From: a virus
IMG/VR virus record: IMGVR_UViG_3300047319_000057
Coordinates: 1 to 26,122 of that record
Reading direction: 5' to 3' (one strand)
DNA length: 26,122 nucleotides
Under the pieces are notes generated by a model. That model saw only the letters and a list, made by a program, of their open reading frames with translations. It was not told where the DNA came from and did no database searches. How positions within the stretch are numbered: the stretch's first letter is position 1; each line of letters starts with the position of its first letter. Shown here in pieces: positions 7,449 through 22,346 of the stretch. Position numbers and translations under genes: made by a program.

Positions 7449-8354
7449 ATGGGTTTTCCCCGACAAGTAAATGTGGTCGCAGCACCGGCAGTTGCGGGTG
7501 ACTTCTGCGACTCGAATCCGCGCTCGACGGTCGATGCTGGCGCAGGCGCGCTCATCGCTAGCGCTAGTGGTGTGAGCGTTGGCCTCTTCGCCTGGATCAA
7601 CCCGACGGACAACATCTCGGTCAGCAACTTCGGCGCAGGCGCTCCGGATGGCTTCGTGCATCGCGACCAGCAAGCGATCATCACGCAGTATCTGGCTGAT
7701 GACACGATGACGATGTATCAGGGCTCGCCGATCACGCTGTTCAATGCTGGCGGCTTCTGGGTGGTCAATGCGGGCTCGACCACATCGGCACTTAAGCAGG
7801 TCGCCTTCGCGAACAATTCGACTGGCGCGGTGCAGTTCGGCTCGAACTTCACCAGCGCAAGCGTGACGGGTTCGATCGCAGCCAATGTATTCACGGGCTC
7901 GATCGCGTCGAACGTCCTGACGATCACCGCCGTTACGACGGGTGTTCTCACCGCCGGCCAGACGATCAGCGGCACGAACGTCACGGCGGGCACGCAGATC
8001 CTCAGCCAGCTCACGGGTACGTCCGGTGGTGTTGGCACGTATCAGGTGAGCATTGTGCAGACCGTGGCGAGCACGACCATCACCGGTTCGGGCGGCACGA
8101 TGACCGTTACGGCAGTTGGCTCGGGCGCAGTTGGCCTGGGTGATGCCCTGACCGGTTCTGGAGTCACCGCTGGTACTGCAGTTACTCAATTCCTGACGGG
8201 CAATGGCGGCACGGGTACGTACGCCGTGAACATCGGCCAGACGGCTGCATCAACGACGATCACTGTGGCCACTGGTACGCAGACCAAGTGGGTCGCAGCT
8301 TCGATCGGCGCACCGGGCGAACTGGTGAAGATGACTACCTGGCTGAACGGCTAA
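7449..8354 (+). CDS. Capsid decoration/cement protein with two beta-module copies
   Basis: 301-aa head surface protein of the 'structural cement' type, placed directly before the capsid gene. The N-terminal part is the family core ([65 protein letters not shown]). Residues 148-211 and 212-271 are two copies of a beta-rich module ([13 protein letters not shown] ... [16 protein letters not shown], and [11 protein letters not shown] ... [16 protein letters not shown]), preceded by a 9-residue tandem start (VTGSIAANV, then FTGSIASNV). The last 25 residues return to a core-like segment. The modules are predicted to project from the capsid. The start has AGGAGT 8-9 nt upstream. A hairpin terminator follows the stop. 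Confidence 0.8.
7863..7916 (+). repeat. 27-nt tandem repeat at the start of the beta-module array
   Basis: Two adjacent 27-nt units (7863-7889 and 7890-7916) encode VTGSIAANV and FTGSIASNV. Both share the core ACGGG(T/C)TCGATCGC. This is the remnant or seed of another module copy. Confidence 0.6.
7890..8081 (+). repeat. Beta-module copy 1 (in decoration protein)
   Basis: Encodes residues 148-211. Signature: [13 protein letters not shown], an [16 protein letters not shown] core, GGVGTYQVS and QTVASTTI. The same ordered signature recurs in copy 2, in the tail completion protein and in the baseplate J-like protein. Confidence 0.75.
8085..8261 (+). repeat. Beta-module copy 2 (in decoration protein)
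   Basis: Encodes residues 213-271. It lacks the FTGSI opening but keeps [32 protein letters not shown] and QTAASTTI, directly after copy 1. Confidence 0.75.
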
Positions 8355-8377
8355 GCGCCGACTCTACCCGCCAAATC

Positions 8378-8400
8378 AGGCCGCCTACGGACGGCTTTTT
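8378..8400 (+). terminator. Hairpin plus T-run between decoration and capsid genes
   Basis: AGGCCGCC pairs with GGCGGCTT-like bases (GGACGGCTT, one bulged A and one G-T pair) around a TAC loop, followed by five T. It looks like a rho-independent terminator or attenuator. It lies inside the late operon, 24 bp before the capsid start, so partial termination or mRNA 3'-end protection is more likely than a full stop. Confidence 0.55.
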
Positions 8401-8423
8401 CATTGCTCAAAGGAAAACGAATC

Positions 8424-9524
8424 ATGGCCAAAATGGCATATGACATGTCGCCGCAAGATCAAAAGGCGGCACTCGACTATCACCGCACCCGCTGGGGTAT
8501 CGACTTCCCGGGCGCACAGATGTTCGCGCGTCCGGAATGGAAGGAAAACATTAACCTCGCGATGGATGCCCAGCCCGCACTGGTCACCGTCCCGAATTCG
8601 GGCATTCCCGCTTACCTGACGTTCTTCACCGATCCGGACATTCTTCGCGTCCTGACCGCGGCGAACGAAGGCGCTGAAATCTTCGGCGAAAAGCAGAAAG
8701 GCGAATGGACGACGTCCACGCTGATCTTCCCGGTTGTGGAGCGCACGTACGAAGTTTCGAGCTACGGCGACTACAACAACAACGGTCGCGCTGGCATCAA
8801 CACGAACTTCCCGGAACGCCAGCCGTATCTGTACCAGACCGTCGTCGAGTATGGCGAACTGGAAATCGAGCGCGCCGGCCTCGCGAAGATCGGCTTCGTG
8901 GCTGAGCAGAAAGAAGCGGCGATCGATGGCCTGAACAAGTTCGGCAACCTGACGTACTTCAAGGGCGTTGCTGGCCTGCAGAACTACGGTGCGTTGAACG
9001 ATCCGGCGTTGTTCCCTGCTATCGCCCCGGCTCCGAAGGTTGCGGGCGGCAATGCCTGGATGAACGGCAACGTCGTCGTCGCAACAGCGAACGAAATCTT
9101 CACCGACATCCAGTCGCTCGTCATTCAGGCGATCAACCAGTCGGGTGGCCGCATCAACACCAAGTCGAAGTTCGTGCTTGCGTTGTCGCCGGCTCGCGAA
9201 GGCGCGCTCACTGCGACCAACACGTTCAACGTGAACGTTGCTGCGCTGCTGAAGAACAACTTCCCGAATCTGGAAGTCAAGAACGCTATCCAGTACGGCG
9301 CCCTGTCGGCACAGAATCCGCAAGGTTCGGCGCTCGGCGAAATCATGCAGTTGTGGTGCCCGGACGCAACCGGCCAGGATTCGGGCTATTGCTCGTTCAA
9401 CGCAAAGCTCCGCGCAGGCCCGGTCGTTCGCGAACTGTCGGCCTACAAGCAAAAGCTATCGCAAGGCACCTCGGGCTTCATCCTGCGTCAGCCGTTTGCA
9501 ATGGCGCAGATGGTCGGCCTGTAA
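8424..9524 (+). CDS. Major capsid protein (DUF2184 family)
   Basis: Main shell subunit, expected to have the HK97 fold. The 366-aa sequence matches the DUF2184/major capsid family: YHRTRWGIDFPGAQMF near the N terminus, NSGIPAYLTFFTDPDILRVL, VERTYEVSSYGDYNNNG in the region of the E-loop, KGVAGLQNYGALNDP, and a C-terminal FILRQPFAMAQMVGL. The frame is open to a TTG at 8403, but the ATG at 8424 has AAAGGA 9 nt upstream and gives the usual N terminus MAKMAYDMS. Codon use is strongly biased to GC-ending optimal codons, as expected for the most abundant virion protein. Confidence 0.95.
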   Translation: MAKMAYDMSPQDQKAALDYHRTRWGIDFPGAQMFARPEWKENINLAMDAQPALVTVPNSGIPAYLTFFTDPDILRVLTAANEGAEIFGEKQKGEWTTSTLIFPVVERTYEVSSYGDYNNNGRAGINTNFPERQPYLYQTVVEYGELEIERAGLAKIGFVAEQKEAAIDGLNKFGNLTYFKGVAGLQNYGALNDPALFPAIAPAPKVAGGNAWMNGNVVVATANEIFTDIQSLVIQAINQSGGRINTKSKFVLALSPAREGALTATNTFNVNVAALLKNNFPNLEVKNAIQYGALSAQNPQGSALGEIMQLWCPDATGQDSGYCSFNAKLRAGPVVRELSAYKQKLSQGTSGFILRQPFAMAQMVGL

Positions 9525-9540
9525 GCAGGGCAGCACACCG

Positions 9541-9590
9541 CGCGCCTAGGGTCATCCCCGAAAGCCGACCTGACCGTACCGGTTGGCGCG
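9541..9590 (+). promoter_or_regulatory. Nested inverted repeats in the gap after the capsid gene
   Basis: The 106-bp gap between the capsid gene and the next gene holds CGCGCC (9541-9546) pairing with GGCGCG (9585-9590) and, nested inside, GGTCA (9550-9554) pairing with TGACC (9571-9575). It would fold as a two-tier RNA hairpin. A T-rich CTCTTTTCTTC follows, so it could be a weak terminator or a leader structure for the next gene. Confidence 0.35.
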
Positions 9591-9630
9591 TGGTCCTCTT
9601 TTCTTCGGTCACCTCTTAAAGGCGGTCAAG

Positions 9631-10110
9631 ATGGCAGGCGATACCCTCAGCATCAAGAAGCACAACGATTCCCCTTCGAATGCGACGGTCACCGTGGCGA
9701 GCAAGATGCCCTTTGACTTCGTGCTGAAGCTGTACGACTTCGTGGAGCGCTCCGAGCCCGTTCTCGGTGGCGGCATGCGCAACTACAAGCAGGCCCAGGA
9801 ACGTCGGACGGCAAAGACCTTCATCGCACAGGGAAATTCGTTCCCGCAGAACAAGGGCGCGCATCAGCAGATCGTCGGTGGTTACGCGATCACGCACGAC
9901 GTTCCCAAGGCTTTCTGGGACGAATGGCTCGATCAGAACAAGGAAGCCGACTACGTTGTCAACGGCATGATCTTCGCGCATGGCGAGTCGGCCAGCACGA
10001 CCGCTGAAGCCCGCGAAAAGGAAAAGGAAAAGTCTGGTCTCGAACGGCTTGACCCGAACAACCTTCCGAAGGGCCTCGAAACCTCGGATCATTTCCGCAG
10101 AGCGTCGTAA
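9631..10110 (+). CDS. Conserved phage protein downstream of capsid, function unknown
   Basis: 159-aa soluble protein. The frame is open upstream to a TTG at 9583, but the ATG at 9631 has AAAGG 8 nt away and gives [17 protein letters not shown]. It contains [16 protein letters not shown], a patch [13 protein letters not shown] and [20 protein letters not shown], and a charged Glu/Lys-rich linker (about residues 125-137) before a C-terminal [13 protein letters not shown]. Such proteins are commonly found between the capsid and DUF4054 connector genes in this phage type. I infer a head or head-completion role from position only. Confidence 0.75.
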
Positions 10111-10112
10111 TT

Positions 10113-10562
10113 ATGGAAGGCGTCGTTGTTTTCGATTACATGGCCTGGTCGGCGCGTTATCCGGAGTTAGCCACGTCGGTAACGCAACCAACGGCGCAGA
10201 TGTATTTCAACGAGGCGCAACTGTACTGCGACAACACGCCGTGCAGCATCGTTGCCGATGTGTGCATACGGGCCGTATTGCTAAATCAGGTGACGGCCCA
10301 TATTGCCGCGCTGAACTCTTCGCTAAACGGCCAGCCGTCTTCACCGCTGGTAGGTCGGATTAATACCGCCACGCAAGGTAGTGTTTCAGTAGGAACGCAA
10401 CTCGATATGCCCCCGGGGTCGTCGCAGTGGTTTGCGCAGACCAAGTACGGCCTGGCATTCTGGCAGGCGACGGCTCAATTTCGGTCAATGCGATATGTGC
10501 CGGGCCGGACACCGGTGGTTAATCCCTGGGGCGGTCGATATGGCGGTTTCGGGAGATTCTGA
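10113..10562 (+). CDS. Head-tail connector / head completion protein (DUF4054)
   Basis: Adaptor protein that docks on the portal after packaging. The 149-aa sequence fits DUF4054: [14 protein letters not shown] at the N terminus, [32 protein letters not shown], then [27 protein letters not shown] and [11 protein letters not shown], ending in a Gly/Arg/Phe-rich tail. This helical pattern with the 'QGSVSV' and 'QWF..TKYG' blocks is typical of connectors of the gp6/gp15 type. The start is 2 bp after the preceding stop. The stop overlaps the next ATG (TGATG). Confidence 0.88.
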
Positions 10563-11170
10563 TGGGCGCATTCTCTGGTGGTGCGGCGCTCGAGGCGAAG
10601 TTGCGAGAGATCGCAGAGAAGGTCGGCAAGGCGAAGACAGTGAATGTCGGATTCCTCGAGGGATCGACCTATCCCGATGGCACTCCGGTTGCGCTGATTG
10701 CCGCCACGAATGAGTACGGTGGCACCGTAACGGTTCCCGAGCATGACGTGACGATCCATCGCAAGATCGACAAGAACGGAAATTTCGCCGCTGGCTCTCT
10801 GGACGAAGAAGGCAATCGCGTAGGGGCGAGCCAGTTCGTCAAGGCTTCCAGGTCGAACTACGACACGACGCACCACGTCGACGAATATACGGTCACCATT
10901 CCTGCACGCCCATTCTTCCGCGGCATGATCGCGGAACACAAAGGCGAGTGGCCGACCGATCTGGGCAAGATCATTAAGGCTGCAAACTATGACTCAGAGG
11001 TCGCGCTGGGCCGCCTGGGAAAACATGTGGCCGAACAGTTGCAGGATTCAATCCGCGCGTTCGATGACCCGGCGAATGCCAAGTCTACGGTCGCAAAGAA
11101 AGGGTTCGACAAGCCTCTTATCGAATCCAAGAACATGTTGGACAGCGTCGACTCCGAGGTGCAAACGTGA
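10562..11170 (+). CDS. Neck / tail-completion protein (HK97 gp10-like)
   Basis: 202-aa protein with the features of HK97-gp10-like or virion morphogenesis proteins that join head and tail: VNVGFLEGSTYPDGTPVALIA, NEYGG, the characteristic IPARPFFRGMI, and a helical C terminus ending with KPLIESKNMLDSVDSEV. A charged insert (HRKIDKNGNFAAGSLDEEGN) lies between NEYGG and the RPFF motif and looks lineage-specific. It overlaps both neighbours (TGATG at the start, GTGA at the stop), so it is translationally coupled inside the connector cluster. Confidence 0.85.
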   Translation: MGAFSGGAALEAKLREIAEKVGKAKTVNVGFLEGSTYPDGTPVALIAATNEYGGTVTVPEHDVTIHRKIDKNGNFAAGSLDEEGNRVGASQFVKASRSNYDTTHHVDEYTVTIPARPFFRGMIAEHKGEWPTDLGKIIKAANYDSEVALGRLGKHVAEQLQDSIRAFDDPANAKSTVAKKGFDKPLIESKNMLDSVDSEVQT

Positions 11171-11550
11171 ACCTGAACAACATTGTGGCCGGCTGTGTCG
11201 CCGCGGTGAATGACTGGGTTACGCTTGCGATCCAGCCATCCCAGGGCTATACGACGAATGATGACGGCTCCCGCGTACCTGCGTATGGGCCGACTCAGTA
11301 TGTGCTCGCACAAATGCAAGCCCTCCAATATAACGACCTGGTTCAGGTCTCCGGCTTGAACCTGACTGGTGAGCGCCGTGCCGTCTATGTGAACGGTGAT
11401 TATGATGCCGTCCTGAGGGCGGCTCAGGCGGGTGGTGATCCGGTCACATTGCTGTCGGATAACAGCAATTGGCTCATCGTGTTCCAGTTTGAAGGTTGGG
11501 ACTATACGGGCGGTTGGACCAAGTTCTGCATGACGAGGCAGTTATCGTGA
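11167..11550 (+). CDS. Conserved neck-region protein
   Basis: 127-aa protein starting with GTG that overlaps the previous stop (GTGA). Blocks: NDWVTLAIQPSQGYTTN, DGSRVPAYG, QMQALQYNDLVQVSGLNLTG, RRAVYVNGDYDAVLRA, NWLIVFQFEGWDYTGGWTKF. I recognise this as a conserved gene between the gp10-like and tail-terminator genes of this phage type, where it is presumed to be a neck or collar component, but the exact role is not established from sequence. No signal or membrane segment. Confidence 0.78.
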   Translation: MNLNNIVAGCVAAVNDWVTLAIQPSQGYTTNDDGSRVPAYGPTQYVLAQMQALQYNDLVQVSGLNLTGERRAVYVNGDYDAVLRAAQAGGDPVTLLSDNSNWLIVFQFEGWDYTGGWTKFCMTRQLS

Positions 11551-12272
11551 GCGTCACGCTATCCCTCACCGAAGTCCAGATTTTCACGGCTCTACGATCG
11601 TTCCTCCTGTCGATCATGCCGGCTGGCATGGAGATCGTGAAGGCGCAGGACAACCGTGTACCGGAACCTGCTGGAACCAACTTCATCACCATGACGCCGC
11701 TGTTTCGCGAGCGCCTTGAAACCAACGTCGATACATATTCAGATGTGGCATTCACCGGATCCATTGCTGGAAATACGTTGACGGTCACAAATATCGGCCT
11801 CGGAACCATTGCAGTAGGGTCGCAATTGATGGGTAACAACCTGGCGTCCAATACGGTCGTGACTGCGCTCGGCACCGGAACAGGCGGGGTCGGTACTTAT
11901 ACGGTTATGCCTGCGCAAACACTCGCGAGCCAGACGATTTCGGCCGGCGTCGAACGTCTGTTGCAGCCGATCAAATTTACAGCGCAACTGGATGTGCACG
12001 GCCCGAACTCTGCGGATAACGCGCAGATCATCACTACGCTCTTCCGGGATGACTACGGAGTCAATGCATTCGCGGCATCGGGCTTCGATGTCACGCCGCT
12101 GTACGCGAACGATCCGCATCAAATGCCATTCGTAAATGGTGAGCAGCAAGTCGAGGAAAGGTACGTGGTCGATGTAGTGATGCAGTGCAATCCCGTCGTC
12201 ACCGTGCCGCAGCAGTTCGCTGACGACCTGCAATACACGGTCAAGAACATCCCGGCGGATTTCCCCGCTTAA
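11547..12272 (+). CDS. Tail completion/terminator-like protein with inserted beta-module
   Basis: 241-aa protein. The core resembles tail-terminator or completion proteins that cap the tube and sheath: LTEVQIFTALRSFLLSIMP, NFITMTPLFRERLETNVDTY, then IKFTAQLDVHGPNSADNAQIITTLFRDDYGV and VVDVVMQCNPVVTVPQQFADD. Between ETNVDTYSD and ERLLQPIKF lies a 63-residue insertion (residues 69-131, FTGSIAGNTLTV ... VGTYTVMPAQTLASQTI), the same module as in the decoration and J-like proteins. The GTG start overlaps the previous stop (GTGA); an upstream in-frame ATG at 11496 lies inside the preceding gene and is not needed. A hairpin terminator follows. Confidence 0.8.
   Translation: MSVTLSLTEVQIFTALRSFLLSIMPAGMEIVKAQDNRVPEPAGTNFITMTPLFRERLETNVDTYSDVAFTGSIAGNTLTVTNIGLGTIAVGSQLMGNNLASNTVVTALGTGTGGVGTYTVMPAQTLASQTISAGVERLLQPIKFTAQLDVHGPNSADNAQIITTLFRDDYGVNAFAASGFDVTPLYANDPHQMPFVNGEQQVEERYVVDVVMQCNPVVTVPQQFADDLQYTVKNIPADFPA
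11751..11939 (+). repeat. Beta-module copy 3 (inserted in tail completion protein)
   Basis: 63 codons, FTGSIAGNTLTVTNIGLG to QTLASQTI, interrupting an otherwise continuous tail-completion core. It has the same motif order as the other copies. Confidence 0.75.
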
Positions 12273-12295
12273 CTCCGCATCAACCAGTTCATTCG

Positions 12296-12326
12296 AGCCT
12301 CCCTTCGCGGAGGCTTTCTTCATTTT
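12296..12326 (+). terminator. Hairpin plus T-rich tail before the sheath gene
   Basis: AGCCTCC (12296-12302) pairs perfectly with GGAGGCT (12309-12315) across a 6-nt loop CTTCGC, followed by TTTCTTCATTTT. It is a rho-independent-type hairpin in the 63-bp gap before the sheath gene. The GGAG ribosome site of the sheath gene lies immediately after it. Probably an attenuator or mRNA processing/stability element within the late operon. Confidence 0.6.
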
Positions 12327-12335
12327 GGAGCACTC

Positions 12336-13844
12336 ATGCAGAGCATTCCCGCCAGCGCGGTCGTACAGGTCATTCCGTCCGTAATCTCGGCGGGCGGGTC
12401 TGCCCTCGACCTCATCGGTCTGTGCCTTACCTCGAACCCGCGTGTCCCGACCGGCCAGGTTCTTTCGTTCCCCTCTTCGGCTGCGGTGTCGGACTACTTC
12501 GGCCCGAATTCGGTTCAGGCTGGTCAAGCCGCGATCTACTTCGCCGGCTTCACGGGCTCTAACGTCCTGCCGGGCGCAATGCTGTTCGCGCAATACAATC
12601 TGGCCGCTGTCCCTGGCTATCTGCGTGGCGGCGACGTCTCCGGTCTGACGCTGACGCAACTGCAGGCGTTTAGCGGCACGCTAACGATCAAGTTTGCCGG
12701 CGTCGGCCTCACCTCGGCGACGATCAATCTTTCGGCGGCCACCAGCTTCTCGAATGCCGCGACGATCATCGCAGCCGGCTTTACGGCGCCCACGTTTGCT
12801 GTGACGTTCGATAGCGTATCGGGTGCATTTGTATTCACCAGCACGATGACCGGCGCAACCAAAACAGTCGATTTCGCTACCGGCACGCTGGCAGCCAATC
12901 TGGCTCTCACGCAAGCAACAGGCGCCGTGTTGTCGCAAGGTGCGGATGCGGTCACGTCACCCTCGGCATTCATGGGAGGCATCGTCGACCAGACGACGAA
13001 CTGGGCCACGTTCTTTTCCGACTTCGATCCGGATGCGGGCTCGGGCAATGCCGTCAAGCTCGAGTTCGCGCAATGGGTCGCCACGACCGGTAACCGGTAC
13101 GCGTACCTCTGCGAAGACACCGACATCACGCCGACTGAATCGACCAATGCGCCGACGTCGCTTGGCCAGTTGATCAAGGCCGCGCAGATCTCGGGCGTAG
13201 AGGTTAGCTGGGTGCCGAGCATTCCGGGCGGCCAGGCAGCGTTTGCTTCGGGAGCGGTCGCATCGATCGACTTCACCGCGACCAACGGGGAAACGACGCT
13301 CGCGTTCAAGTCCCAATCCGGTCTCACGGCAACGGTGACGAGCCAGACTGTGATGGATAACCTCATCGCGAATGGCTACAACGTATATGGCGCGTTTGCA
13401 ACCGCGAACGATCAGTTCATCTTCTTCTATCCTGGTTCTATCAGCGGTCCGTTCGCGTGGGTCGACGCGTACGTTGGGCAGATCTGGCTGAACAACGCAT
13501 TCCAGCTCGCGCTTATCGAACTGTTGACCCAGGTCAAGTCGATCCCCTACAACGCCGCTGGCTACGCGTTGGTTTCGGCCGCGATGCAAGATCCGATCAC
13601 CGCGGCGCTGAACTTCGGCCTCATCACGCCGGGTGCCACGCTGTCGGCTGCGCAGATCGCGGAGGTAAATAACCTCACGGGCGTATCGATCGGGAACGTC
13701 CTGCAATCGCAGGGTTGGTTCCTTCAGATCCAGCCGGCCACTGCACAAACTCGCGGCGCTCGCCAGTCGCCGACGATCTTCTTCCTGTATGTGCAGGGCG
13801 GATCGATTCAGAAGCTCGTAGTTAATTCAGTCGAGGTCCAATAA
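12336..13844 (+). CDS. Tail sheath protein (DUF3383 family)
   Basis: Contractile sheath subunit, and the best evidence for a myovirus. The 502-aa length and layout fit DUF3383: an N-terminal strand region ([35 protein letters not shown]), [20 protein letters not shown], an inserted beta domain at about residues 100-205 (many Thr/Ala/Ser), the core [20 protein letters not shown], and a C-terminal handle ([25 protein letters not shown]). The ATG at 12336 has GGAG 8 nt upstream. The stop overlaps the tube start (TAATG), ensuring matched synthesis of sheath and tube. Confidence 0.92.
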
Positions 13845-14275
13845 TGGCAGACATCACCAGCTCGAATAGCATTTTGATTTTGGGCGTCACGGGCTTTTTT
13901 ACTGTGCCCCAGCAACTCGCCGGCTTCGCTGCCGACGACATGTATTCGATGGCAAACGTCGATACGAAAGAAGTCGTCATGGGCGCAGACGGAAAGTTGT
14001 CCGCTGGATACATTCCGCAAATCAAGGTGCTCGAGATAACCCTGCAAGCGGATAGCCCGAGCAACACATTTTTTGAGTCGGTATACGCTGCTGAGGAGGC
14101 CGCTCAGGCGCCGTTCTTCTTCTTCGGCAACATCACGCAACAGTCGGTAGGCAAGAACTATACGTTGACCACTGGCGTGATGAAGAACTACAAGCCTCTT
14201 GCCGATGCAAAGAAGACGTTGCAGCCGCGGAAGTTTGAAATTCACTTTGGGTCCGTCATTGCGGTGCCGATCTAA
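13844..14275 (+). CDS. Tail tube protein (DUF3277 family)
   Basis: Inner tube subunit of the contractile tail. The 143-aa sequence fits DUF3277: SSNSILILGVTGFFTVPQQL at the N terminus, FAADDMYSMANVDTKEVVMGADGKLSAGYIP, LEITLQADSPSNTFFESVY, and the C-terminal strand RKFEIHFGSVIAVPI. It directly follows the sheath gene with a 1-base overlap, the usual sheath-tube order. Confidence 0.9.
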   Translation: MADITSSNSILILGVTGFFTVPQQLAGFAADDMYSMANVDTKEVVMGADGKLSAGYIPQIKVLEITLQADSPSNTFFESVYAAEEAAQAPFFFFGNITQQSVGKNYTLTTGVMKNYKPLADAKKTLQPRKFEIHFGSVIAVPI

Positions 14276-14276
14276 A

Positions 14277-14714
14277 ATGCGCAAAACCAAAACTATCGTC
14301 ATCGAGTCGGCGGGGCGTGACCAGGGCAAGATGTTCACAGTCACGGAGTTGTCCGCTTCGCAGGCTGAATCATGGGCCACACGCGCCCTCTTCGTCATGA
14401 TGAACTGTGGCGTAGAGGTGCCGGATGATCTGCTGTCGGCTGGCTTGGCTGGCATTGCAGCGATCGGCATCAAGTCGCTTACTAAAGTCCCATACGAACT
14501 CGCCCGGCCTCTGTTCGACGAGATGATGGAGTGCATTTCCATCGTCCCCGATCCGAAGCAGCCGATGGTCAAGCGCGGCTATGGCGGCGTTGGCCCCATG
14601 ATCGAGGATGACATCGAGGAAGTCTCGACGCGGCTTCAGTTGCGCAAGGCCGTTCTCGAGTTGCACATGAGTTTTTTTACGAGCGCCGCCACGCAAAAAC
14701 AAGAGGCGGCGTAA
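14277..14714 (+). CDS. Tail assembly chaperone, short product
   Basis: 145-aa helical protein between tube and tape measure, the place of tape-measure chaperones (lambda G, P2 E equivalents). It binds the tape measure during tube growth and is not found in virions. The ATG at 14277 directly follows the tube stop (TAAA ATG). Blocks: KTIVIESAGRDQGKMFTVTEL, WATRALFVMMNCGVEVPDDLL, GIKSLTKVPYELARPLFDEMM. The C terminus MSFFTSAATQKQEAA is the part that changes upon frameshifting. The zero-frame stop comes right after the predicted stimulatory stem. Confidence 0.9.
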   Translation: MRKTKTIVIESAGRDQGKMFTVTELSASQAESWATRALFVMMNCGVEVPDDLLSAGLAGIAAIGIKSLTKVPYELARPLFDEMMECISIVPDPKQPMVKRGYGGVGPMIEDDIEEVSTRLQLRKAVLELHMSFFTSAATQKQEAA

Positions 14715-14896
14715 CCGTCGACGGCCTGCTCGACTATCCGAACGTCTCACAGAATATCGGCCTGATCGTATCGAGGAATATGGCGACGCTGCATGAACTG
14801 CAGACCGTGTATGGAAGTCAGGATCTTTACGACCTGATCGAAATCGTCGTTATCAATTCGCACAACGACCGCATCATGAGCGAGCGCAAGGAATAA
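14277..14896 (+). CDS. Tail assembly chaperone, -1 frameshift product
   Basis: Long form made by a programmed -1 shift at the T7 run (14672-14678), where the zero frame reads AGT TTT TTT. After the slip the frame continues TAC GAG CGC CGC, giving FFYERRHAKTRGG, then VTVDGLLDYPNVSQNIGLIVSRN, LHELQTVYGSQDLYDLIEIV and a stop at 14894-14896, 2 bp before the tape measure ATG. The product is 134 + 72 = 206 aa. The extension is protein-like and has no start codon with a good ribosome site of its own. It corresponds to lambda GT or P2 E/E'. Coordinates span the join; the reading frame changes at 14678. Confidence 0.85.
14672..14711 (+). promoter_or_regulatory. -1 frameshift element: T7 slippery run plus stem-loop
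   Basis: The slippery heptamer TTTTTTT (14672-14678) is aligned so both P- and A-site Phe codons re-pair after a -1 slip. A 5-nt spacer (ACGAG) leads to stem CGCCGCC (14684-14690) pairing with GGCGGCG (14705-14711) around a 14-nt A-rich loop. Slip site, spacer length and GC stem all match known frameshift signals. Confidence 0.85.
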
Positions 14897-14898
14897 GA

Positions 14899-16776
14899 AT
14901 GGCGAATATTGTCGACGCTCTGGTCGTGACACTCGGCATGGACGTTGCCGGCTTCATCGCCGGCAAGAACAAGGCATCCGACGCCACGAAGAAACTGACG
15001 GCTGAGGAAGTCAAGGCCGGGAAGCAGATTGAGGAAATAAACAAGCGCTCTGCCGAGTCGTTCAAGAAGGTCCGCAATGAGGTGCTGGCTCTCCTGGCGA
15101 TCTTCACTGCCGGAATGGGCCTCAAGGACTTCACCGAGCACACAATTGGATCCGCGGTGAACCTTGGCTACATGGCCAAGAATCTGCAGATGAGCACGCA
15201 GGAGCTTTCTGCGTGGCAACGCGCGGCCGAACGCGCAGGCGGCAGCGCCGAAGGCATCACGCAAGCGCTCCAGGATTCCCAGCAGCAGATCGCCGGATTC
15301 AAGATCGGCAAGGTCAGCGACCAGATACAGGCCTTCCTTCGTTTCGGCGGAAAGACTAGCGACCTGCAGGACGGCAATAGCTTCCTGCTGGCTCGCGCGA
15401 AGATCATCCAGGACCTGTACAAGGTCGATCCGGCTCGCGCACAACTGGTCTCCCAGATGATGGGCGTCAGTGGTGAAGAGTTCAACTTCATCAAGCAGGG
15501 CCCGCAGGCGATCCTTGCGCTCGTCGATGCGCAGAAGAAGAACTCAGCCATCACTGAGCAGCAGGCTGCGCAAGCTCTCAAACTTCAGAACGCATGGCTG
15601 GATTTCCGGGACCGTCTCCAGTATGTTGGAACGACGATCCTGCTGGAGTTGATGCCGACGTTTGAGTTGTGGCTCAAGAAGTTGCAGCAGATGGCTGACT
15701 GGGTTGCTGATCACAAGGCAGACATATCCAAGTGGGTCGACGATGCGGTTCTATCGATCCAGAAGTTTGTTGACTGGGCGGATAGCGCGGCTAAATCCGT
15801 CGGCGGATGGAAAGTGGTGCTTGAGGCCCTTCTCTTGCTGAAAGTCCTGTCGATGGTTAGTCCATTCTTGCAACTGGCGGCTGCGCTTGGCGGTCTTGGA
15901 ACGTCTCTCGGCATCATCGGGACGCTCGGGCCTGCCGCCATTGCCGCTCTTGCTGGGTTGGGCATTGCAAAGGCATTGGGAGTGCCGGACACCGACGAAG
16001 CGCAGGGCTGGAAGGATGTCCAGAATGGTGACTGGCTGGCGGCCTCGGCGCATCTCCCGGCGGCCGACTTCATCAAGGCATTGGCGAACAAAGCCACAGG
16101 CAGTCTGTCGTCAGCACTTGGCAATTCCAGCGATCTGAGAGCGAAGGCCGGACCGGCGGCGGTTCAGGCAGCTCTCAAGACTCAATGGAAGTATGGCGTG
16201 CCGGCGGACGTAACGCTCGCGCAGTTCTCTCTTGAGAGCAGCAATGGAGCGCACATGCCAGCGGGCAGCAATAACCCGTTCGGCATTCATGCGGCGAACG
16301 GTCAGCCGTTTGTGTGGGGCATGGACTGGGATTCGAGCGGCAAGCGTGTTCCGACGAAGTTTGCCAAGTACGCGTCCCTGGATGATGCTTTCGAGGCCCA
16401 CGGCAAACTGCTCGCTACCGGATCCGCTTACGCCGATGCACGCCGTCACCTTGACGACCCGATGGCCTATGCTGCAGCGCTGACGGGACATTACGCCACA
16501 GACCCGTTGTATGGCTCCAAGCTTCAGGCGCTGATGCGTGGGTCTGGCGGTTCTGCGAGCGCTGCGGCAATAGCGGCACAGTCCGCTGGCGCTCGCAGTT
16601 CCGGCTCGTATGCATCCCGTATGTCACAGATGACCTCGACTGCCGAGACCAACATCAACGGCCCGATCACCATCCAGACACAGGCAACCGATGCACAGTC
16701 CCTCGCTCGAGACTTCGGCAAGGAAATGGCGAAATACAGCTTCACGGTGCCGCAGGCAAACACAGGATTGACGTAA
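14899..16776 (+). CDS. Tape measure protein with glucosaminidase-like domain
   Basis: Sets tail length and is ejected into the host envelope. The 625-aa protein begins with MANIVDALVVTLGMDVAGF and a coiled coil (residues 30-75, KKLTAEEVKAGKQIEEINKR), followed by helical tape regions and a hydrophobic segment (about 304-358, LEALLLLKVLSMVSPFLQLA, then GTLGPAAIAALAGLG). Residues about 412-550 form a FlgJ-type glucosaminidase/muramidase: VTLAQFSLESSNG with E446 as the likely acid, NNPFGIHA, KYASLDDAFEAHGKLL and the terminal AALTGHYATDPLYGSKL. This domain should open peptidoglycan during infection. At about 0.15 nm per residue the tail would be under 95 nm. The start is 2 bp after the chaperone extension stop. 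Confidence 0.9.
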   Translation: MANIVDALVVTLGMDVAGFIAGKNKASDATKKLTAEEVKAGKQIEEINKRSAESFKKVRNEVLALLAIFTAGMGLKDFTEHTIGSAVNLGYMAKNLQMSTQELSAWQRAAERAGGSAEGITQALQDSQQQIAGFKIGKVSDQIQAFLRFGGKTSDLQDGNSFLLARAKIIQDLYKVDPARAQLVSQMMGVSGEEFNFIKQGPQAILALVDAQKKNSAITEQQAAQALKLQNAWLDFRDRLQYVGTTILLELMPTFELWLKKLQQMADWVADHKADISKWVDDAVLSIQKFVDWADSAAKSVGGWKVVLEALLLLKVLSMVSPFLQLAAALGGLGTSLGIIGTLGPAAIAALAGLGIAKALGVPDTDEAQGWKDVQNGDWLAASAHLPAADFIKALANKATGSLSSALGNSSDLRAKAGPAAVQAALKTQWKYGVPADVTLAQFSLESSNGAHMPAGSNNPFGIHAANGQPFVWGMDWDSSGKRVPTKFAKYASLDDAFEAHGKLLATGSAYADARRHLDDPMAYAAALTGHYATDPLYGSKLQALMRGSGGSASAAAIAAQSAGARSSGSYASRMSQMTSTAETNINGPITIQTQATDAQSLARDFGKEMAKYSFTVPQANTGLT

Positions 16777-17379
16777 ATGGCAAACGGTATCCCGTCGCTT
16801 CTGGGTCAGGTAGCCAACATCGCCAATACGGTGTCCCTGCTCGCCGCGGATGCCGCGATTGTCGTTGGGATGTTTCAGGGGCCGCAGTGGGGCGTCTTCA
16901 ATCCGAGTGGAATCATCGCTCTTGAGCCTGACTCGATAATTAGCCTTGATTTTCATCGAGAATGGAAGATTCCCAACTATCCCCTGGAGCAGGGGGCTTT
17001 CCAGTCGTATAACAAGGTGGCGCTGCCCAGTAATACTCGCCTGAGAATGACGAAGGGCGGCACGGACGATGACAGGAGCAATTTTCTCTTTCAAGTGGAC
17101 TTTGCGGCAGCGTCGCTGGATATTTTCAATGTGCTGATGCCTGAAGGGACGCTTATCAAGAGCGTCAATATCGTCAATTAATCATACAACCGCACCTCGA
17201 CCAATGGCGTCGGCCTGCTCACCGTTGATATCGAGCTGGAAGAGGTTCGCGTCACTGCGACTGCGGCGTTCTCGAACAACAACACGGCCGCGCCAAGCGG
17301 TGCTGACCCGGTCAATGACGGTCAGGTGCAGGCTACGGCTGTTCCGTCTCCGCAGATCAGCGTATCAGCCCTGCAGTGA
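16777..17379 (+). pseudogene. Tail/baseplate-region gene split by in-frame TAA at 17179
   Basis: A conserved protein found between tape measure and baseplate plug genes in this phage type; function not established. The first 134 codons (start at 16777 directly after the tape measure stop) include IVVGMFQGPQWGVFNPSG, REWKIPNYPLEQGAFQSYNKV and FAAASLDIFNVLMPEGTLIK, ending SVNIVN. Then comes TAA at 17179-17181, and the same frame continues 65 codons (SYNRTSTNGVGLLTVDIELE, then EVRVTATAAF, SGADPVNDGQVQATA) to a TGA at 17377. Homologues, as I recall them, read through this spot with a Tyr (VNxVxYxYxR), so a TAT/TAC to TAA change is the simplest explanation. Either a nonsense mutation, readthrough, or a sequencing error; the tail has no start codon with a ribosome site. 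Confidence 0.8.
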
Positions 17380-17380
17380 G

Positions 17381-17710
17381 TTATTCCACGGGCCTCGACT
17401 GACTGGGCTGATAGCAGGCTTGAATTACCTGCTGCGCAAGCATTGCACCGCGCGCATAGGCAAAGTGTTCGTCGAAAAAGACAAGATTGACGGCTTTCTT
17501 GATGAAGGCATCATCGACGCCGTCGTACCTGGCCTTGCGCAGGTAGTCGTAAGAATACTGCGCCGACCATCCGCTATCACGGAAAGTCGCGGCCATCTGA
17601 AATACAAGTCCCTCCATTCCGCATTCGTGCATCCTTTGCTGATCTGCGGTCACTTCAGCTTGAGCCGCGATGGGCAGCGCAAGGGCAATAGCAATTACGT
17701 AGCGAAGCAT
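17381..17710 (-). CDS. Small secreted protein, probable cargo (moron) gene
   Basis: 109-aa protein with a clear Sec signal peptide: MLRYVIAIALALPIAAQA followed by EVTADQQ, so cleavage is expected after AQA and the mature protein is about 91 aa in the periplasm or outside. The mature part is helical, with two Cys (HECGMEG and IQACYQP) that could form a disulfide, and YSYDYLRKARYDGVDDAFIKK. I recognise no named function. AGAGG lies 5 nt upstream of the ATG. It is opposite to the tail operon, with its stop one base from the stop of the interrupted gene. No strong promoter is visible; a weak TTGAAT-like -35 lies upstream. Such genes often act in lysogens. Confidence 0.78.
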   Translation of the reverse strand: MLRYVIAIALALPIAAQAEVTADQQRMHECGMEGLVFQMAATFRDSGWSAQYSYDYLRKARYDGVDDAFIKKAVNLVFFDEHFAYARGAMLAQQVIQACYQPSQSRPVE

Positions 17711-17750
17711 TGTTACCTCTATGTTTGTGGCCCGATTGGACCGTTAAGAA

Positions 17751-18077
17751 ATGCAGACCATTCCGATTCAAGACACGTTCTCGCAGACCTTGACGGTCCA
17801 GCTTGGCGGCCAGAACACACAGATCAATCTGTATCAGAAGTCGGAAAACCACCTGTACTGCGATTTGTTCGTGAATAACGTCGCGATCGTTACCGGCGTG
17901 ATTTGCCAGAACCTCAATCGCATCGTTCGCGACGCGTATCTCGGGTTTGTGGGCGACCTCTGCTTCTTTGACACGCAAGGGACCACGACTCCGCCGAGCA
18001 CCGGGTTGGATCCAACTAGCCCCGGTCTCGGAACCCGATACCTCTTTTTGTACCTCTCGCCCGCCGACCTCGAATGA
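17751..18077 (+). CDS. Baseplate plug protein (Pam3 gp18-like)
   Basis: 108-aa beta-rich protein that matches the small plug/hub-associated proteins of simple contractile baseplates (the family I know from cyanophage Pam3). Blocks: IPIQDTFSQTLTVQLGGQNT, INLYQKSENHLYCDLFVNN, VAIVTGVICQNLNRIVRDAY, LGFVGDLCFFDTQG and GLGTRYLFLYLSPADLE. It is followed by the hub gene with an ATGA overlap. Only a weak AAGA ribosome site precedes the ATG. The 40-bp gap to the divergent secreted-protein gene must hold both ribosome sites. Confidence 0.85.
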   Translation: MQTIPIQDTFSQTLTVQLGGQNTQINLYQKSENHLYCDLFVNNVAIVTGVICQNLNRIVRDAYLGFVGDLCFFDTQGTTTPPSTGLDPTSPGLGTRYLFLYLSPADLE

Positions 18078-18937
18078 CTTTCGACCGCAAACAGATTGTT
18101 CTCACGGTGAGCCTCGGTACAGGGCAATTCGGCGAGACGGGCGCAAACACGGTGACATTGACCGGCCTTCGGGTCAGGGCGGAAATCCAGCAGTTCGGTG
18201 GCGACGCCATGCCTCAGGTGCAGTTGCTTGTGTACGGTCTGCCGCTGTCGATGATCAACCAGTTGACGGCAATCGGCCCAATCAACTCGTCCGTGCTGTT
18301 CAGGAACTCAGTGCTGGTCGCGGTCGGTGATGAGGGCAAAGCGCTGACGACGATCTACAGCGGGAACATCTGGCAGGCTTGGGGAGACTTCAATCGCCTT
18401 CCGGATGCGGCGCTGAACATCTCCGCGATAGGCGGCCTCGCTGCGTCTCTGAAACCGATCGCCGCCTCCAGTTATCCGGGAAGCGCAGACGTCGGTACGA
18501 TCATGCAGCAACTGGCGACGCTGGCCGGCGTCGGGTTCGTGAACAACGGCGTTTCTGTCCAGCTCGCCAACCCGTATTTCCCCGGCACGGCACTCAATCA
18601 GATTCGAGAGTGCGCCGATGCGGCTGACATTAATTTCACGATCGATACAGGCGTTCTGTACATCTGGCCGAAGGGCGGCACTCGAAACTCAGGAGTTACG
18701 CTCATATCTCCGGAAACGGGAATGGTTGGCTATCCGGCATTCTCGAGCAACGGCCTGATGCTGACGACAATCTTCAATCCATCGGTCGTGATCGGCGGAA
18801 AGATTCAGGTTCAAAGCTCCATTCAGGCCGCATGCGGTCAGTGGATCGCCACGCAGATTTCACATTCGCTTGAGAGCGAGACGCCGGGCGGTCAGTGGTT
18901 CACGCACATTCTCGGGATTCCGGCAGATGTCCAATAG
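18074..18937 (+). CDS. Baseplate hub protein
   Basis: 287-aa protein in the place of the gp27/gpD-type hub that joins the tube to the spike. Features: an N-terminal beta domain (RKQIVLTVSLGTGQFGETGA, NTVTLTGLRVRAEI), LLVYGLPLSMINQLT, IYSGNIWQAWGDFNRLPDAA, ISAIGGLAASLKPI, then a middle helical part (IMQQLATLAGVGFVNNGVSV) and a C-terminal strand region (VVIGGKIQVQSSIQAACGQW) with the LESETPGGQWFTHILGI motif typical of hubs. It is coupled to the plug gene by ATGA and overlaps the spike gene by 11 bp. Larger hubs of P2 type are split in this layout. Confidence 0.88.
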   Translation: MTFDRKQIVLTVSLGTGQFGETGANTVTLTGLRVRAEIQQFGGDAMPQVQLLVYGLPLSMINQLTAIGPINSSVLFRNSVLVAVGDEGKALTTIYSGNIWQAWGDFNRLPDAALNISAIGGLAASLKPIAASSYPGSADVGTIMQQLATLAGVGFVNNGVSVQLANPYFPGTALNQIRECADAADINFTIDTGVLYIWPKGGTRNSGVTLISPETGMVGYPAFSSNGLMLTTIFNPSVVIGGKIQVQSSIQAACGQWIATQISHSLESETPGGQWFTHILGIPADVQ

Positions 18938-19676
18938 TCAGGTCGGATACCGCGGCACGGCAGAAGCTACAGACAACGGTTCGGACTTCAACTCCAACAC
19001 GTTCCTGGTCTGGTCGATCCTAGCCCGCGTGCGCACGATGCAGGTCTGCAAGGTGCTGAGCGTCACGAATGACGGCGGCGTTGCTCCGGTTGGCTTCGTG
19101 AGCTTGCAGCCAATGGTGAATCAGCTAGACGGGTATGGCAATGCCATGCCGCACGGGGAAATCTTCAACGTCCCCTACTTCCGCCTTCAGGGTGGAGCAA
19201 ACGCGATCATTCTTGACCCGCAAGTCGGCGATATTGGATGGGCGGGCTTCGCCGATAGGGATATCTCGAGCGTAAAGGCTACGAAGGCGCAGGCCAATCC
19301 CGGCAGCCGGCGCAAGTTCTCCATGGCGGATGCGGTGTACATGGGTGGGATCCTTAACGGAACGCCCAGCCAGTACGTAGCGTTCTCGTCGAGCGGCATA
19401 TCGATCGTATCGCCGACGAAGATCAGCTTGTCGGCTCCGACGATCGTCCTGCAGGCCACCGAAACGATAGGCCTGACCGCGGGAACCGAGATCACGAACT
19501 CTGCGCCCGCGATCGAGATCGATGGTCAGATGACGCAAGGCGAAGGACCATTGGGTGGTAATGCATCGATGCAAGGTCCACTAAATGTGACGCAGGACGT
19601 CACTGCGCAAGGCACAAGCGTTCATACGCATACTCACCCAGATCCTCAGGGTGGCAACACAGGACCGCCGAACTGA
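18927..19676 (+). CDS. Baseplate spike protein (gp138/gp45-like) with HTHTHP tip
   Basis: Membrane-piercing spike. I chose the ATG at 18927 (MSNSQVGYRG), which overlaps the hub gene by 11 bp; the upstream ATG at 18870 is inside the hub gene. The OB-fold region is MQVCKVLSVTNDGGVAPVGFVSLQPMVNQ, followed by AIILDPQVGDIGWAGFADRDIS. A beta-helix follows (ISIVSPTKISLSAPTIVLQA), with QGPLNVTQDVTAQGTSVHTHTHPDPQGG at the end. The HxHxH tip is the iron-binding apex of phage spikes. Length of 249 aa is normal. Confidence 0.92.
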   Translation: MSNSQVGYRGTAEATDNGSDFNSNTFLVWSILARVRTMQVCKVLSVTNDGGVAPVGFVSLQPMVNQLDGYGNAMPHGEIFNVPYFRLQGGANAIILDPQVGDIGWAGFADRDISSVKATKAQANPGSRRKFSMADAVYMGGILNGTPSQYVAFSSSGISIVSPTKISLSAPTIVLQATETIGLTAGTEITNSAPAIEIDGQMTQGEGPLGGNASMQGPLNVTQDVTAQGTSVHTHTHPDPQGGNTGPPN

Positions 19677-20023
19677 TGAACAGTCTATTCCTTAGCGAAA
19701 ACTGGGATCTCGCGATCGATTCCCTCGGGAATGTCGCCGTATGTTCTGAGCCGTATAGATTGGCCCAGGATGCTGCATGTGCGATAAAAACCTTTGGGGG
19801 TGAGGTTTATTACAACACGACGCTCGGGATACCCTATTTCCAGAATATATTGGGCCACCTCCCAACTCTGGCATACGTCAAGAGCCAGATGGCTGACGCT
19901 GCGGAGACTGTGCCGGGCGTCGTCTCAGCTCGGGTGTTCATAACATCCTTTGATAACCGCGTTTTGCGCGGGCAGGTTCAAGTAACCGACAGCGCCGGCA
20001 ATGTGACAGCAGCCAGTTTCTAA
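19676..20023 (+). CDS. Baseplate wedge protein (gp25/W-like)
   Basis: 115-aa gp25-like wedge subunit that initiates sheath attachment to the baseplate. Sequence blocks: LSENWDLAIDSLGNVAVCSE, YRLAQDAACAIKTFGGEVYYN and TTLGIPYFQNILGHLPTLAY, then the C-terminal domain VPGVVSARVFITSFDNRVLRG. The GEVYYNTTLGIPYF block with an ILG helix is characteristic. The start overlaps the spike stop (TGATG). A strong terminator-like hairpin follows before the J-like gene. Confidence 0.88.
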   Translation: MNSLFLSENWDLAIDSLGNVAVCSEPYRLAQDAACAIKTFGGEVYYNTTLGIPYFQNILGHLPTLAYVKSQMADAAETVPGVVSARVFITSFDNRVLRGQVQVTDSAGNVTAASF

Positions 20024-20044
20024 GCGCGACCACTCAAGCTAACC

Positions 20045-20069
20045 AAGCCGCCCTCGGGCGGCTTTTTTT
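20045..20069 (+). terminator. Strong rho-independent-type terminator hairpin
   Basis: AAGCCGCCC (20045-20053) pairs with GGGCGGCTT (20056-20064) and is followed by T to 20069, seven T in all. It sits between the gp25-like and J-like genes, 11 bp before the next ATG, so the J gene has no strong ribosome site of its own between hairpin and start. Likely partial terminator or antitermination-controlled; it may set lower levels of the distal baseplate and fibre genes. Confidence 0.75.
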
Positions 20070-20080
20070 ATGGCCGCTTC

Positions 20081-21499
20081 ATGGCAAACACAAGCGTTCC
20101 ATTCCCGACGTTCGGCCCGACCGGATTTCAGGCCCCGCTGGAAAGCGCTATCCTCGCGGGCGTGCAGGCCGACCAACAAGCGGCCTTCGGCGGCAATCTA
20201 AACAATGCGCTCAATACTCCACAAGGCCAGCTCGCCCAAAGCGAAACCGCGATCATTGGTGATGCGAATTCACAATTTCTCTTCCTCGCAAACGGCGTAG
20301 ACCCCGCTTTCGCATCCGGTCGTCTTCAAGACGGCATCGCGAGAATCTACTTCCTGACGCGACTGGCTGCCCAGCCAACGACGCTGCAGATTTCCTGCTC
20401 GGGCCTGAACACGCCCATCCCGGCAGGAACCGCTCAGATTAAAGATTCTGACGGCAACATCTATACGTGCACTACCACGGGCACGATTCCGGCAAGCGGC
20501 GGCGCAATCACTCTGCCGTTTGCCTGCCTGACGACCGGCCCTATTCCGGTTCCGGCCAGCAATGGCGTCAAGATCTTTTCGGCCATCCCCGGATGGGATT
20601 CCGTCACATGCATCTCGGGCGTCATTGGCCGCGATGTCGAGTCGCGTGCGGCCTTCGAATTGCGCCGACAGCAAAGCGTCGCACTGAACTCGGTCGGCAT
20701 GCTGGACTCGATCCTTGGCGCCGTGCTTAATGTGCCGGGTGTAGTCGACGCATATGTGATCGACAATCCGCAGGGCACTCCACAGACGATCGGCGGCGTC
20801 ACACTCAACGCAAACAGTCTCTATGTGTGCGTCGCTGGCAGCTATGTGCCTCATGATGTCGCTCAAGCGATCTGGACGAAGAAGCCACCGGGCTGCAACT
20901 ACACGGGCAACACTTCGCAAACGGTTGTGGATCCGAATCCGGTCTACGCAAATCCTCCGAGCTACACCGTCAAATTCCAGACGGCGACTAACACGCCGAT
21001 ATTCTTCGCCGTCTCGATCAAGAACAGCACTCTGGTCCCTCAGAACGTGCTGGCACTGGTACAGCAGGCGTTGGATAGCGCATTCTCGGGAGCGGACGGC
21101 GGGTTAGTGCCGCGTATCGGCGCCGAGATTTTCGCGAGCCGCTTTTACGCTGACATCGCACTGCTTGGGCCTTGGGCGCAGATCGTCACACTGCAGATCG
21201 GCTGCATCAATACTCCGGCCGCCACATTCACGGGGTCTATCTCGGGCAACACGCTAACGGTCTCGGCCGTCGCTTCTGGTGCACTGGCTATCGGTCAGTA
21301 CATCACCGATGCATCGAGCGGGATCGTATCGGGTACGCAGATCACGGCCGGTAGCGGTACGTCGTGGACGGTGAGTATTGCCCAGACGGTGGCGAGCGAA
21401 GCGATGTTCGGTGTTGTGCCGAACCAGAACGATGTAACGATGAACATCGATCAGGAGGCGACATTCTCCGCGGCTAACGTGATTCTGACCTTGGTTTGA
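20081..21499 (+). CDS. Baseplate J-like wedge protein with C-terminal beta-module
   Basis: 472-aa baseplate wedge (J/gp6-like). Core blocks: FGPTGFQAPLESAILAGVQA, LNTPQGQLAQSETAIIGDAN, GRLQDGIARIYFLTRLAAQP, GRDVESRAAFELRRQQSVAL, SILGAVLNVPGVVDAYVIDN, SLYVCVAGSYVPHDVAQAIW and NVLALVQQALDSAFSGADGG. Residues 383-442 are the repeated beta-module (FTGSISGNTLTVSAV ... WTVSIAQTVASEAM), after which the core resumes with NDVTMNIDQEATFSAANVIL. The module therefore interrupts the C-terminal domain. It starts 11 bp after the hairpin and lacks a clear Shine-Dalgarno motif. Confidence 0.9.
   Translation: MANTSVPFPTFGPTGFQAPLESAILAGVQADQQAAFGGNLNNALNTPQGQLAQSETAIIGDANSQFLFLANGVDPAFASGRLQDGIARIYFLTRLAAQPTTLQISCSGLNTPIPAGTAQIKDSDGNIYTCTTTGTIPASGGAITLPFACLTTGPIPVPASNGVKIFSAIPGWDSVTCISGVIGRDVESRAAFELRRQQSVALNSVGMLDSILGAVLNVPGVVDAYVIDNPQGTPQTIGGVTLNANSLYVCVAGSYVPHDVAQAIWTKKPPGCNYTGNTSQTVVDPNPVYANPPSYTVKFQTATNTPIFFAVSIKNSTLVPQNVLALVQQALDSAFSGADGGLVPRIGAEIFASRFYADIALLGPWAQIVTLQIGCINTPAATFTGSISGNTLTVSAVASGALAIGQYITDASSGIVSGTQITAGSGTSWTVSIAQTVASEAMFGVVPNQNDVTMNIDQEATFSAANVILTLV
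21227..21406 (+). repeat. Beta-module copy 4 (inserted in J-like protein)
   Basis: 60 codons, FTGSISGNTLTVSAV to QTVASEAM. The 27-nt stretch 21371-21397 matches 8046-8072 in the decoration gene at 23 of 27 positions. Confidence 0.75.
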
Positions 21500-21500: not shown

Positions 21501-22346
21501 ATGCAGAACGTCTCTCAAACCTATCTCAGTCAATTCGCCAACAGCCCAATCATTACCGGGCTGATCGAAAACTTTAACGAGTGCGTCGATCCGTCCGCAA
21601 ACATCGATGCGTTTTTCGACCTTGTTTGGAACGTTGATACGGCCCAAGGCTACGGCCTGGAGGTGTGGGGGCGCATAGTCGGAGTTTCCCGAGTCCTCCA
21701 GATTTCATCCGGCGAGTGGCTTGGTTTTAACGAGGCCGGTGATGGCACCGTCGAAACGCCGTTCAATGTGGCGCCCTTCTTCAACGGCACCTCGACGACG
21801 GAAAACTTTGCACTGACAGATGATGCATTCCGTCAACTGATCCTTGCCAAGGCATACGCGAACATCTCGAACGGCTCGATTGCCACCATCAATCAGTTGT
21901 TGATGACCCTGTTCGGGGATTCTGGAGAATGCTGGTGTACCGATGGTCAGAACATGACCATGACATACACATTCGGCTTCCAGCTTTCTCCGGTTCAGTT
22001 CGCCATTGTCGCCCAGTCGGGAGTGCTTCCGCGCCCCGCTGGCGTGCTGGCCACCATTATCCAGTTGGGTCTGTTGAGTGATGGCGGCGTTGTCACTCTC
22101 AGCGCGGGAATCCCGGGATATCCGACATCGCCCTCCGGTCTTGCAATCGGAGCGCTCTGGAACAACGGGGGCGTCGTCTGCATTGCCGGAACGACCACCC
22201 CCAATCCGGCTGCGCCTCCAGTCTTCTTTAACAACATCTCGGCATCGCAACTTCTTGCGCTGGGCGGAGCGAACTTCCCCCTCTCCAATCCCGGTGTCGG
22301 CAGCGGACAAATCTGGAATAACGGCGGCGTTGCATGCGTCGCGTGA
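21501..22346 (+). CDS. Tail/baseplate wedge protein (DUF2612) with WNNGGVV repeats
   Basis: 281-aa protein in the place of tail protein I, linking wedge to fibres. The DUF2612 core is residues 1-180: YLSQFANSPIITGLIENFNE, FFDLVWNVDTAQGYGLEVWG, IVGVSRVLQI, DDAFRQLILAKAYANISNGS, TINQLLMTLFG. The C terminus carries two short repeats, GALWNNGGVVCIAG (Trp codon at 22158) and GQIWNNGGVACVA (Trp codon at 22314), joined by a Pro/Ala linker. A similar module ends the small gene at 23579. The start is 1 bp after the J-like stop and lacks a clear ribosome site, so it is probably coupled. Confidence 0.85.
   Translation: MQNVSQTYLSQFANSPIITGLIENFNECVDPSANIDAFFDLVWNVDTAQGYGLEVWGRIVGVSRVLQISSGEWLGFNEAGDGTVETPFNVAPFFNGTSTTENFALTDDAFRQLILAKAYANISNGSIATINQLLMTLFGDSGECWCTDGQNMTMTYTFGFQLSPVQFAIVAQSGVLPRPAGVLATIIQLGLLSDGGVVTLSAGIPGYPTSPSGLAIGALWNNGGVVCIAGTTTPNPAAPPVFFNNISASQLLALGGANFPLSNPGVGSGQIWNNGGVACVA

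Follow-up and report, generated by a model that had tools for sequence, protein, structure and literature searches.

A small predicted β domain, probably inserted into β-hairpins, recurs across virion proteins of a group of contractile-tailed phages

A segment of about 60 residues that recurs in the virion proteins of a small contractile-tailed phage and its relatives is, by prediction, a small self-contained β domain, inserted into β-hairpins of those proteins. Comparison of orthologous loci shows that this phage group uses seven or more insertion sites, distributed over four orthologous virion proteins, and that the insertion leaves the core of the host protein intact. The window, i.e. the whole stretch of DNA analysed here, is a 26,122-base IMG/VR virus record that carries the structural genes of the phage. 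It has Pfam matches to XM1_gp53_minor_capsid, Phage_tail_terminator_9, DUF3383 (tail sheath), Baseplate_J and DUF2612, and its gene order is like that of Pantoea phage PA-1, Burkholderia phage Bcep781 and Aeromonas phage 56. The genes that matter for what follows are these:

7449..8354, + strand: decoration (minor capsid) protein gene, 301 aa, with two modules (PF23982, E 9.4e-16; phrog_2122, E 1.4e-34)
11547..12272, + strand: tail (neck) terminator gene, 241 aa (PF23961, E 9e-23; NF047498; Foldseek matches to phage terminators including that of XM1)
12336..13844, + strand: tail sheath gene, module-free here, with orthologues that carry one or two modules (PF11863, E 4.7e-124)
20081..21499, + strand: J-like baseplate wedge gene, 472 aa (PF04865, E 8.4e-14; phrog_6, E 7.8e-54)
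22360..23382, + strand: tail fibre gene, module-free here (phrog_12796)

The terminator most likely starts at the GTG at 11547 and not at 11496, as judged by alignment with homologues. Elsewhere in the window, the head maturation protease (DUF2213; 5614-7425, + strand) has an N-terminal NUDIX hydrolase domain within one open frame. A short LWNNGGVV(C/A)-like motif, another motif dispersed among proteins of the virion region, is found twice at the end of the DUF2612 protein (21501-22346, + strand) and once, as VVWNDNGVVSIS, ending a small downstream ORF (23579-23797, + strand). On the minus strand, the open frame at 25375-26115 resembles a membrane acyltransferase, and an acyltransferase is annotated in Pantoea phage PA-1 at the corresponding end of the structural genes.

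When the terminator copy of the module was used as query against the window, exactly four places were returned, which are the four copies of about 60 residues that an earlier note on this DNA had described, two in the decoration protein and one each in the terminator and the J-like wedge:

7890..8084, + strand: module copy A of the decoration protein (E 1.5e-9)
about 8085..8264, + strand: module copy B of the decoration protein, abutting copy A (E 8.5e-9)
about 11751..11948, + strand: module in the terminator (E 6e-36)
about 21227..21406, + strand: module in the J-like protein, at site J2, ahead of the last strands (E 1.1e-7)

The similarity is far above chance: pairwise scores lie 10-14 standard deviations over composition-preserving shuffles, and in 1000 shuffles the observed score was never attained, whichever pair of copies was compared. 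An ordered set of conserved residues is common to the window copies; decoration copy B is without the FTGSI block, and in the J copy the Gly/Thr core is shorter and GTYxV is replaced by GTSWTV. Only short DNA matches are found between the copies (the best, between decoration copy A and J, spans 28 nt at 86%), and this divergence at the DNA level means that they are not recent duplications. The host proteins belong, as the earlier note had supposed, to different families (Pfam XM1_gp53_minor_capsid, Phage_tail_terminator_9 and Baseplate_J).

The claim that the module interrupts otherwise continuous cores holds for both the terminator and J, each of which has orthologues without it. Uninterrupted cores are present in orthologues from cultured phages (Acetobacter phage phiAO1, Pantoea phage PA-1, Bcep781 and Aeromonas phage 56), and solved relatives of the sheath (504 aa) and of J (404-417 aa) are of core length. 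With so many homologues lacking the segment, it is not an integral part of these folds. In the terminator the junctions read YSDVA[module]GVERLL and correspond to a short turn in module-less proteins, and in J the module lies between a strand ending GCINTPAA and GVVPNQNDVTMNIDQ, which in module-less proteins are joined by a few residues. The supposed restriction of such interruption to these two proteins does not stand, since the C-terminal core strand of the decoration protein resumes after the copies, making the decoration pair an internal insert as well. The pair is located between ASVTGSIAA and this C-terminal core strand; in proteins without modules the two directly adjoin each other (GATVAGSIETKFYAATAGAASELIKM in locus L113). 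The C-terminal strand of the module-less decoration proteins was misplaced by MAFFT and was aligned by eye instead. The two flanking elements are:

7857..7883, + strand: ASVTGSIAA, the decoration core strand directly before the modules (by-eye alignment with GATVAGSIETK of module-less decoration proteins)
8277..8351, + strand: resumption of the decoration C-terminal core (25 residues), with the modules as internal insert

A profile search of viral contigs yielded 317 relatives, in which the module occupies further sites that are empty in the window. The tail sheath of relatives carries either a single module (e.g. in L121) or a tandem pair (15 loci), and in L096 the sheath module is at a different place, after FDSQSSAFVLTSPTTGA. 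The empty sites are:

11619..11624 (approximate), + strand: second terminator site T1, with a module in L079 and L068
12781..12786 (approximate), + strand: sheath site S, with one module in L091/L121 and the tandem pair in 15 loci
12856..12861 (approximate), + strand: sheath site S', occupied in L096
20766..20771 (approximate), + strand: first J site J1, occupied in L087 and L091

The phrog_12796 fibre family, module-free in the window, carries the module in relatives L121 and L197. The decoration, terminator, sheath and J genes are all present in 26 loci, and occupancy among these takes 10 of 16 possible combinations, ranging from no module (L102-L105) through the decoration protein only (L126, L130) to all four proteins (10 loci). 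Most of these loci were found via the module search, which biases the proportions and leaves the combinations unaffected. Trees of the cores require at least four changes for the sheath, at least four for J and at least two for the terminator, and the nearest pairs with and without a module have core identities of 74% (sheath) and 73% (J). Taken across loci, these comparisons indicate that the occupancy of each protein varies independently. A syntenic relative (L138/L093, G040), in whose 43.8 kb record no module was found, is a natural module-free control. One of the loci without modules, L102 (Acetobacter phage phiAO1), has genes for catalase, Cu-Zn superoxide dismutase, peroxiredoxin and sulfurtransferase amid its structural genes.

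AlphaFold2 was run on the tandem module (39 sequences) and on the terminator (18 sequences). The tandem model has a mean pLDDT of 87, exceeding 90 over the first module, with strands in module A at residues 2-14, 25-28, 36-43 and 49-66, the last of which continues toward module B. The terminator model (mean pLDDT 82, pTM 0.62) matches the terminators of phages Pa193, E217, Pam3 and XM1 by Foldseek; in it, two 25-residue strands (61-85 and 115-139) cross the junctions at 69/70 and 132/133, the short strands of the module lying in between. The end strands of the module are thus continuous with the host hairpin in this model, and the module seems to prolong the hairpin and not to hang on a flexible linker, the strand pairing being read from predicted secondary structure. 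The prediction is of a compact four-stranded β unit at the hairpin end, and the decoration and terminator copies show the same strand order, in agreement with the expectation that copies in different hosts would share a structure. For the module, only one notable fold match was obtained in the PDB, and both models led to it: 8eci chain 1 (Arthrobacter phage Bridgette), with probabilities of 0.96 and 0.99, weak E-values of 0.41 and 0.044 and a partial alignment. Sequence-profile comparison of the module with this chain gave no match, PDB sequence searches with the module returned chance-level matches only, and profiles from the decoration and terminator alignments had no sequence match in the PDB. 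Resemblances to F1-ATPase, pyruvate kinase and FeoA were weak and not significant, and were set aside.

An important question is how the module came to be in so many places. The earlier note had proposed spread within one genome, and the identities argue against this: copies at different sites of the same genome (0.494) are no more alike than unrelated pairs (0.492). Copies at the same site in different genomes have a mean identity of 58.7% (0.587), and the window copies share 84-88% identity with their counterparts at the same site of other phages. Since same-site similarity is above background and same-genome similarity is at background, most insertions are, on these identities, old and have been inherited at their sites, alongside gains, losses and a small number of transfers. 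An excess likeness among the copies of one genome, as would mark a mobile element, is seen only in L197 (1-3046), where the copies in the J-like and tail-fibre genes have 77% identity across 155 nt and share a long run of identical residues. This pair is the best candidate for recent copying from gene to gene. It lends some colour to the proposal that the copies in the window arose by recent duplication inside this phage genome, as does what the decoration and sheath pairs have in common in order and prefix (below). Against the proposal stand the identities just given and the scarcity of close DNA matches between families, with no pair above 80% apart from L200/L202, clusters that look like one family apparently split by truncated frames. 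For the window we therefore reject it on the comparison of same-site with same-genome identity, and consider it very improbable.

The tandem pair of the sheath also points to a putative transfer between genes. When sheath and decoration tandems are compared, identities are 0.57 for first with first and 0.54 for second with second modules, vs. 0.48-0.50 for the crossed comparisons, and the correspondence in order is positive in all 15 pair-bearing sheaths, which are related to each other. In addition, the ASVTGSIAA prefix is also found ahead of the sheath pair (score 33.3, compared to 20.5 for shuffled sequences, sd 2.3). In the same prefix test it was absent from single-copy sheaths, module-less sheaths, J and the terminator. 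Given that a core strand of module-less decoration proteins aligns with this prefix, transfer of the tandem pair from the decoration gene to the sheath gene would be the simplest reading, and the sheath pair in the 15 loci may stem from one single event. Descent of both pairs from a shared older unit is the alternative.

Beyond the phage group, the module is present in head-closure Hc3 (phrog_578), phrog_12985, phrog_3287, phrog_3645 and phrog_1912, in a minor-tail-like protein and in several fibres. About 20 further protein clusters of diverse phages carry it in all. The cores of all module-bearing proteins fall into 25 clusters, some of which may be distantly related. Those hosts of the module that have a PHROG assignment are virion proteins. 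Within 21 structural regions, 95 of 98 modules are in the decoration protein, terminator, sheath or J and three in other structural proteins, and no module was found in the tube, tape measure or major capsid proteins of these loci. BFVD yielded structural matches as well, among them a phage HK97 major capsid protein (60% identity, 0.6 Å across 65 columns), a P22 gp10-like protein, a tip protein J and fibres. The tandem model also matches the collagen-repeat proteins A0A1V0SDM6_2 and A0A1V0SCQ2 of Indivirus ILV1 (47% and 36% identity), which possibly reflects either true sharing or an assembly chimera. By tblastn against cultured phages the module alone gave no match, probably owing to the masking of low-complexity sequence by BLAST; with a longer and less repetitive relative as query, tail fibres of Sinorhizobium phage phiLM21 and environmental phages were retrieved. 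A pattern scan of genomes, for which a 4-row alignment was used as the 75-row alignment was too diverse, gave eight bacterial loci. Thus, the impression that the module recurs in other phage structural proteins as a family without a name is borne out by the profile, PHROG, Pfam and NCBIfam searches.

What could such a domain do for the particle? The module consists to 61% of Thr, Ser, Gly and Ala, and charged residues (DEKR) make up 2.4% of it vs. 16.9% of the core proteins in the window; there are no conserved charged residues and only one strongly conserved aromatic. In the AlphaFold2 model of the terminator, the one host modelled, the first and last strands of the module would prolong both arms of the host hairpin, and the little disturbance of the host fold that this entails would explain why many unrelated proteins tolerate it. 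The hairpins used would face solvent, so that the virion would be studded with the domain; assuming an XM1-like geometry, we estimate that the head would carry several hundred copies, with rings of them on the neck and baseplate in addition. The benefit would then lie in multivalent display, most simply as weak general adhesion to cell-surface or environmental polymers. Binding of sugars or mucus, which the earlier note had raised, would be conjectural; mammalian mucus is not suggested, given that Rhizobium, Bradyrhizobium and Paraburkholderia predominate among the named bacterial hosts.

On balance we favour multivalent surface display with weak adhesion, giving it about an even chance, with a cementing role as its main rival and neutral persistence third. 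Speaking against display are the few aromatics, the near absence of charge and conserved residues that are only of a structural type, leaving no obvious ligand site; moreover, the nearest solved fold would also suit cementing. As a cement or spacer, the module would touch neighbouring subunits in head trimers, sheath rings and the neck and so stabilise the particle, a role to which its structural rather than ligand-like composition would be suited. Most copies are within a decoration protein family that reinforces capsids (PMC10457771), tail cementing has been proposed for add-on domains of sheath proteins (PMC9230969), and dimeric capsid cementing proteins are reported for phage Bridgette (PMC13033339), one of which, we infer, is 8eci chain 1. 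Still, the E-values of the Bridgette match are weak, one and the same module occurs in very different symmetry environments, fibres included, and occupancy that is optional in every host, in 10 combinations, would be odd for a load-bearing part, all of which makes cementing unlikely in our view. The repeated gain and loss in every host, the insertion at tolerant hairpins and the one recent-looking intragenomic copy (L197) could also be read as the marks of a neutral or near-selfish insert that is tolerated at hairpin tips and spreads by recombination at no benefit to the phage. The copies are nevertheless in frame, with Gly, Thr and Tyr positions strongly conserved despite very low overall identity; sites are kept over long divergence (same-site identity 0.587), and nearly all copies are in a few outer virion proteins. 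This renders a neutral insert distinctly improbable. We tentatively propose, as possible rather than probable, a hairpin-graft domain of general purpose that would differ from both Ig-like domains and carbohydrate-binding modules (CBMs), would occur across most outer virion layers in many tailed-phage lineages and possibly giant viruses, would move as ordered tandem units (e.g. from decoration protein to sheath with a piece of the donor core strand) and would present one repeated surface chemistry.

The promiscuous accessory domains so far known from phage particles are for the most part Ig-like folds and CBMs. The module is not Ig-like and has no known CBM match, and in its distribution it behaves like both; it forms a separate, smaller family that, within a single phage group, is found in head, neck, sheath, baseplate and fibre proteins. 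No Pfam or NCBIfam model matches it, and a description of the domain was not found in the open-access papers searched, although one may exist elsewhere. The natural pairs with and without the module, with core identities of up to 74%, offer a way to test both the purpose of surface domains and how a domain enters unrelated proteins, and a curated profile of the module would explain many unannotated stretches of phage structural proteins. PHROG 21413 (unknown function) and PHROG 38233 (tail fibre) have profiles that contain the module inside larger proteins; these are whole-protein families and not a named domain.

Phage Ig-like domains are present, as optional and exchanged parts, in five classes of virion protein, namely fibre, baseplate, tail, head and decoration proteins (PMC7602432), and weak adhesion has been proposed for them; Hoc, pb10 and gp17 are examples of this optional, promiscuous occurrence (Fraser et al. 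2006, as cited in PMC10684548). The module is likewise an optional, promiscuous β domain in several unrelated virion proteins, but it is grafted inside hairpins, and its roughly 60 residues and four predicted strands compare with 7-9 strands and roughly 80-100 residues for the Ig fold. Searched alone, it gave no Ig, Big or fn3 match in Pfam or NCBIfam and no significant Ig fold match, so that its size and the lack of a profile match rule out an Ig-like domain. In the 936 lactococcal phages, CBMs are found on the neck, tail and baseplate and their binding to host cells has been measured (PMC6669499). There too, one class of domain is dispersed over several proteins of a single virion; cell binding was measured for those modules, whereas the module here is known from sequence and predicted structure, with no CBM profile match in Pfam or NCBIfam and no significant lectin or CBM match in the PDB. 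The additional domains of phage tail sheath proteins are a precedent for added surface domains (PMC9230969), the difference being that here one domain family is also in head, neck, baseplate and fibre proteins. Finally, gp53, gp5 and gp16 of Vibrio phage XM1 have cores orthologous to those of the three host proteins (PMC10457771). XM1 gp5 and gp16, at 161 and 404 residues vs. 241 and 472 here, are too short to have room for a module, and gp53 is described up to residue 160, compared to 301 residues for the decoration protein in the window.
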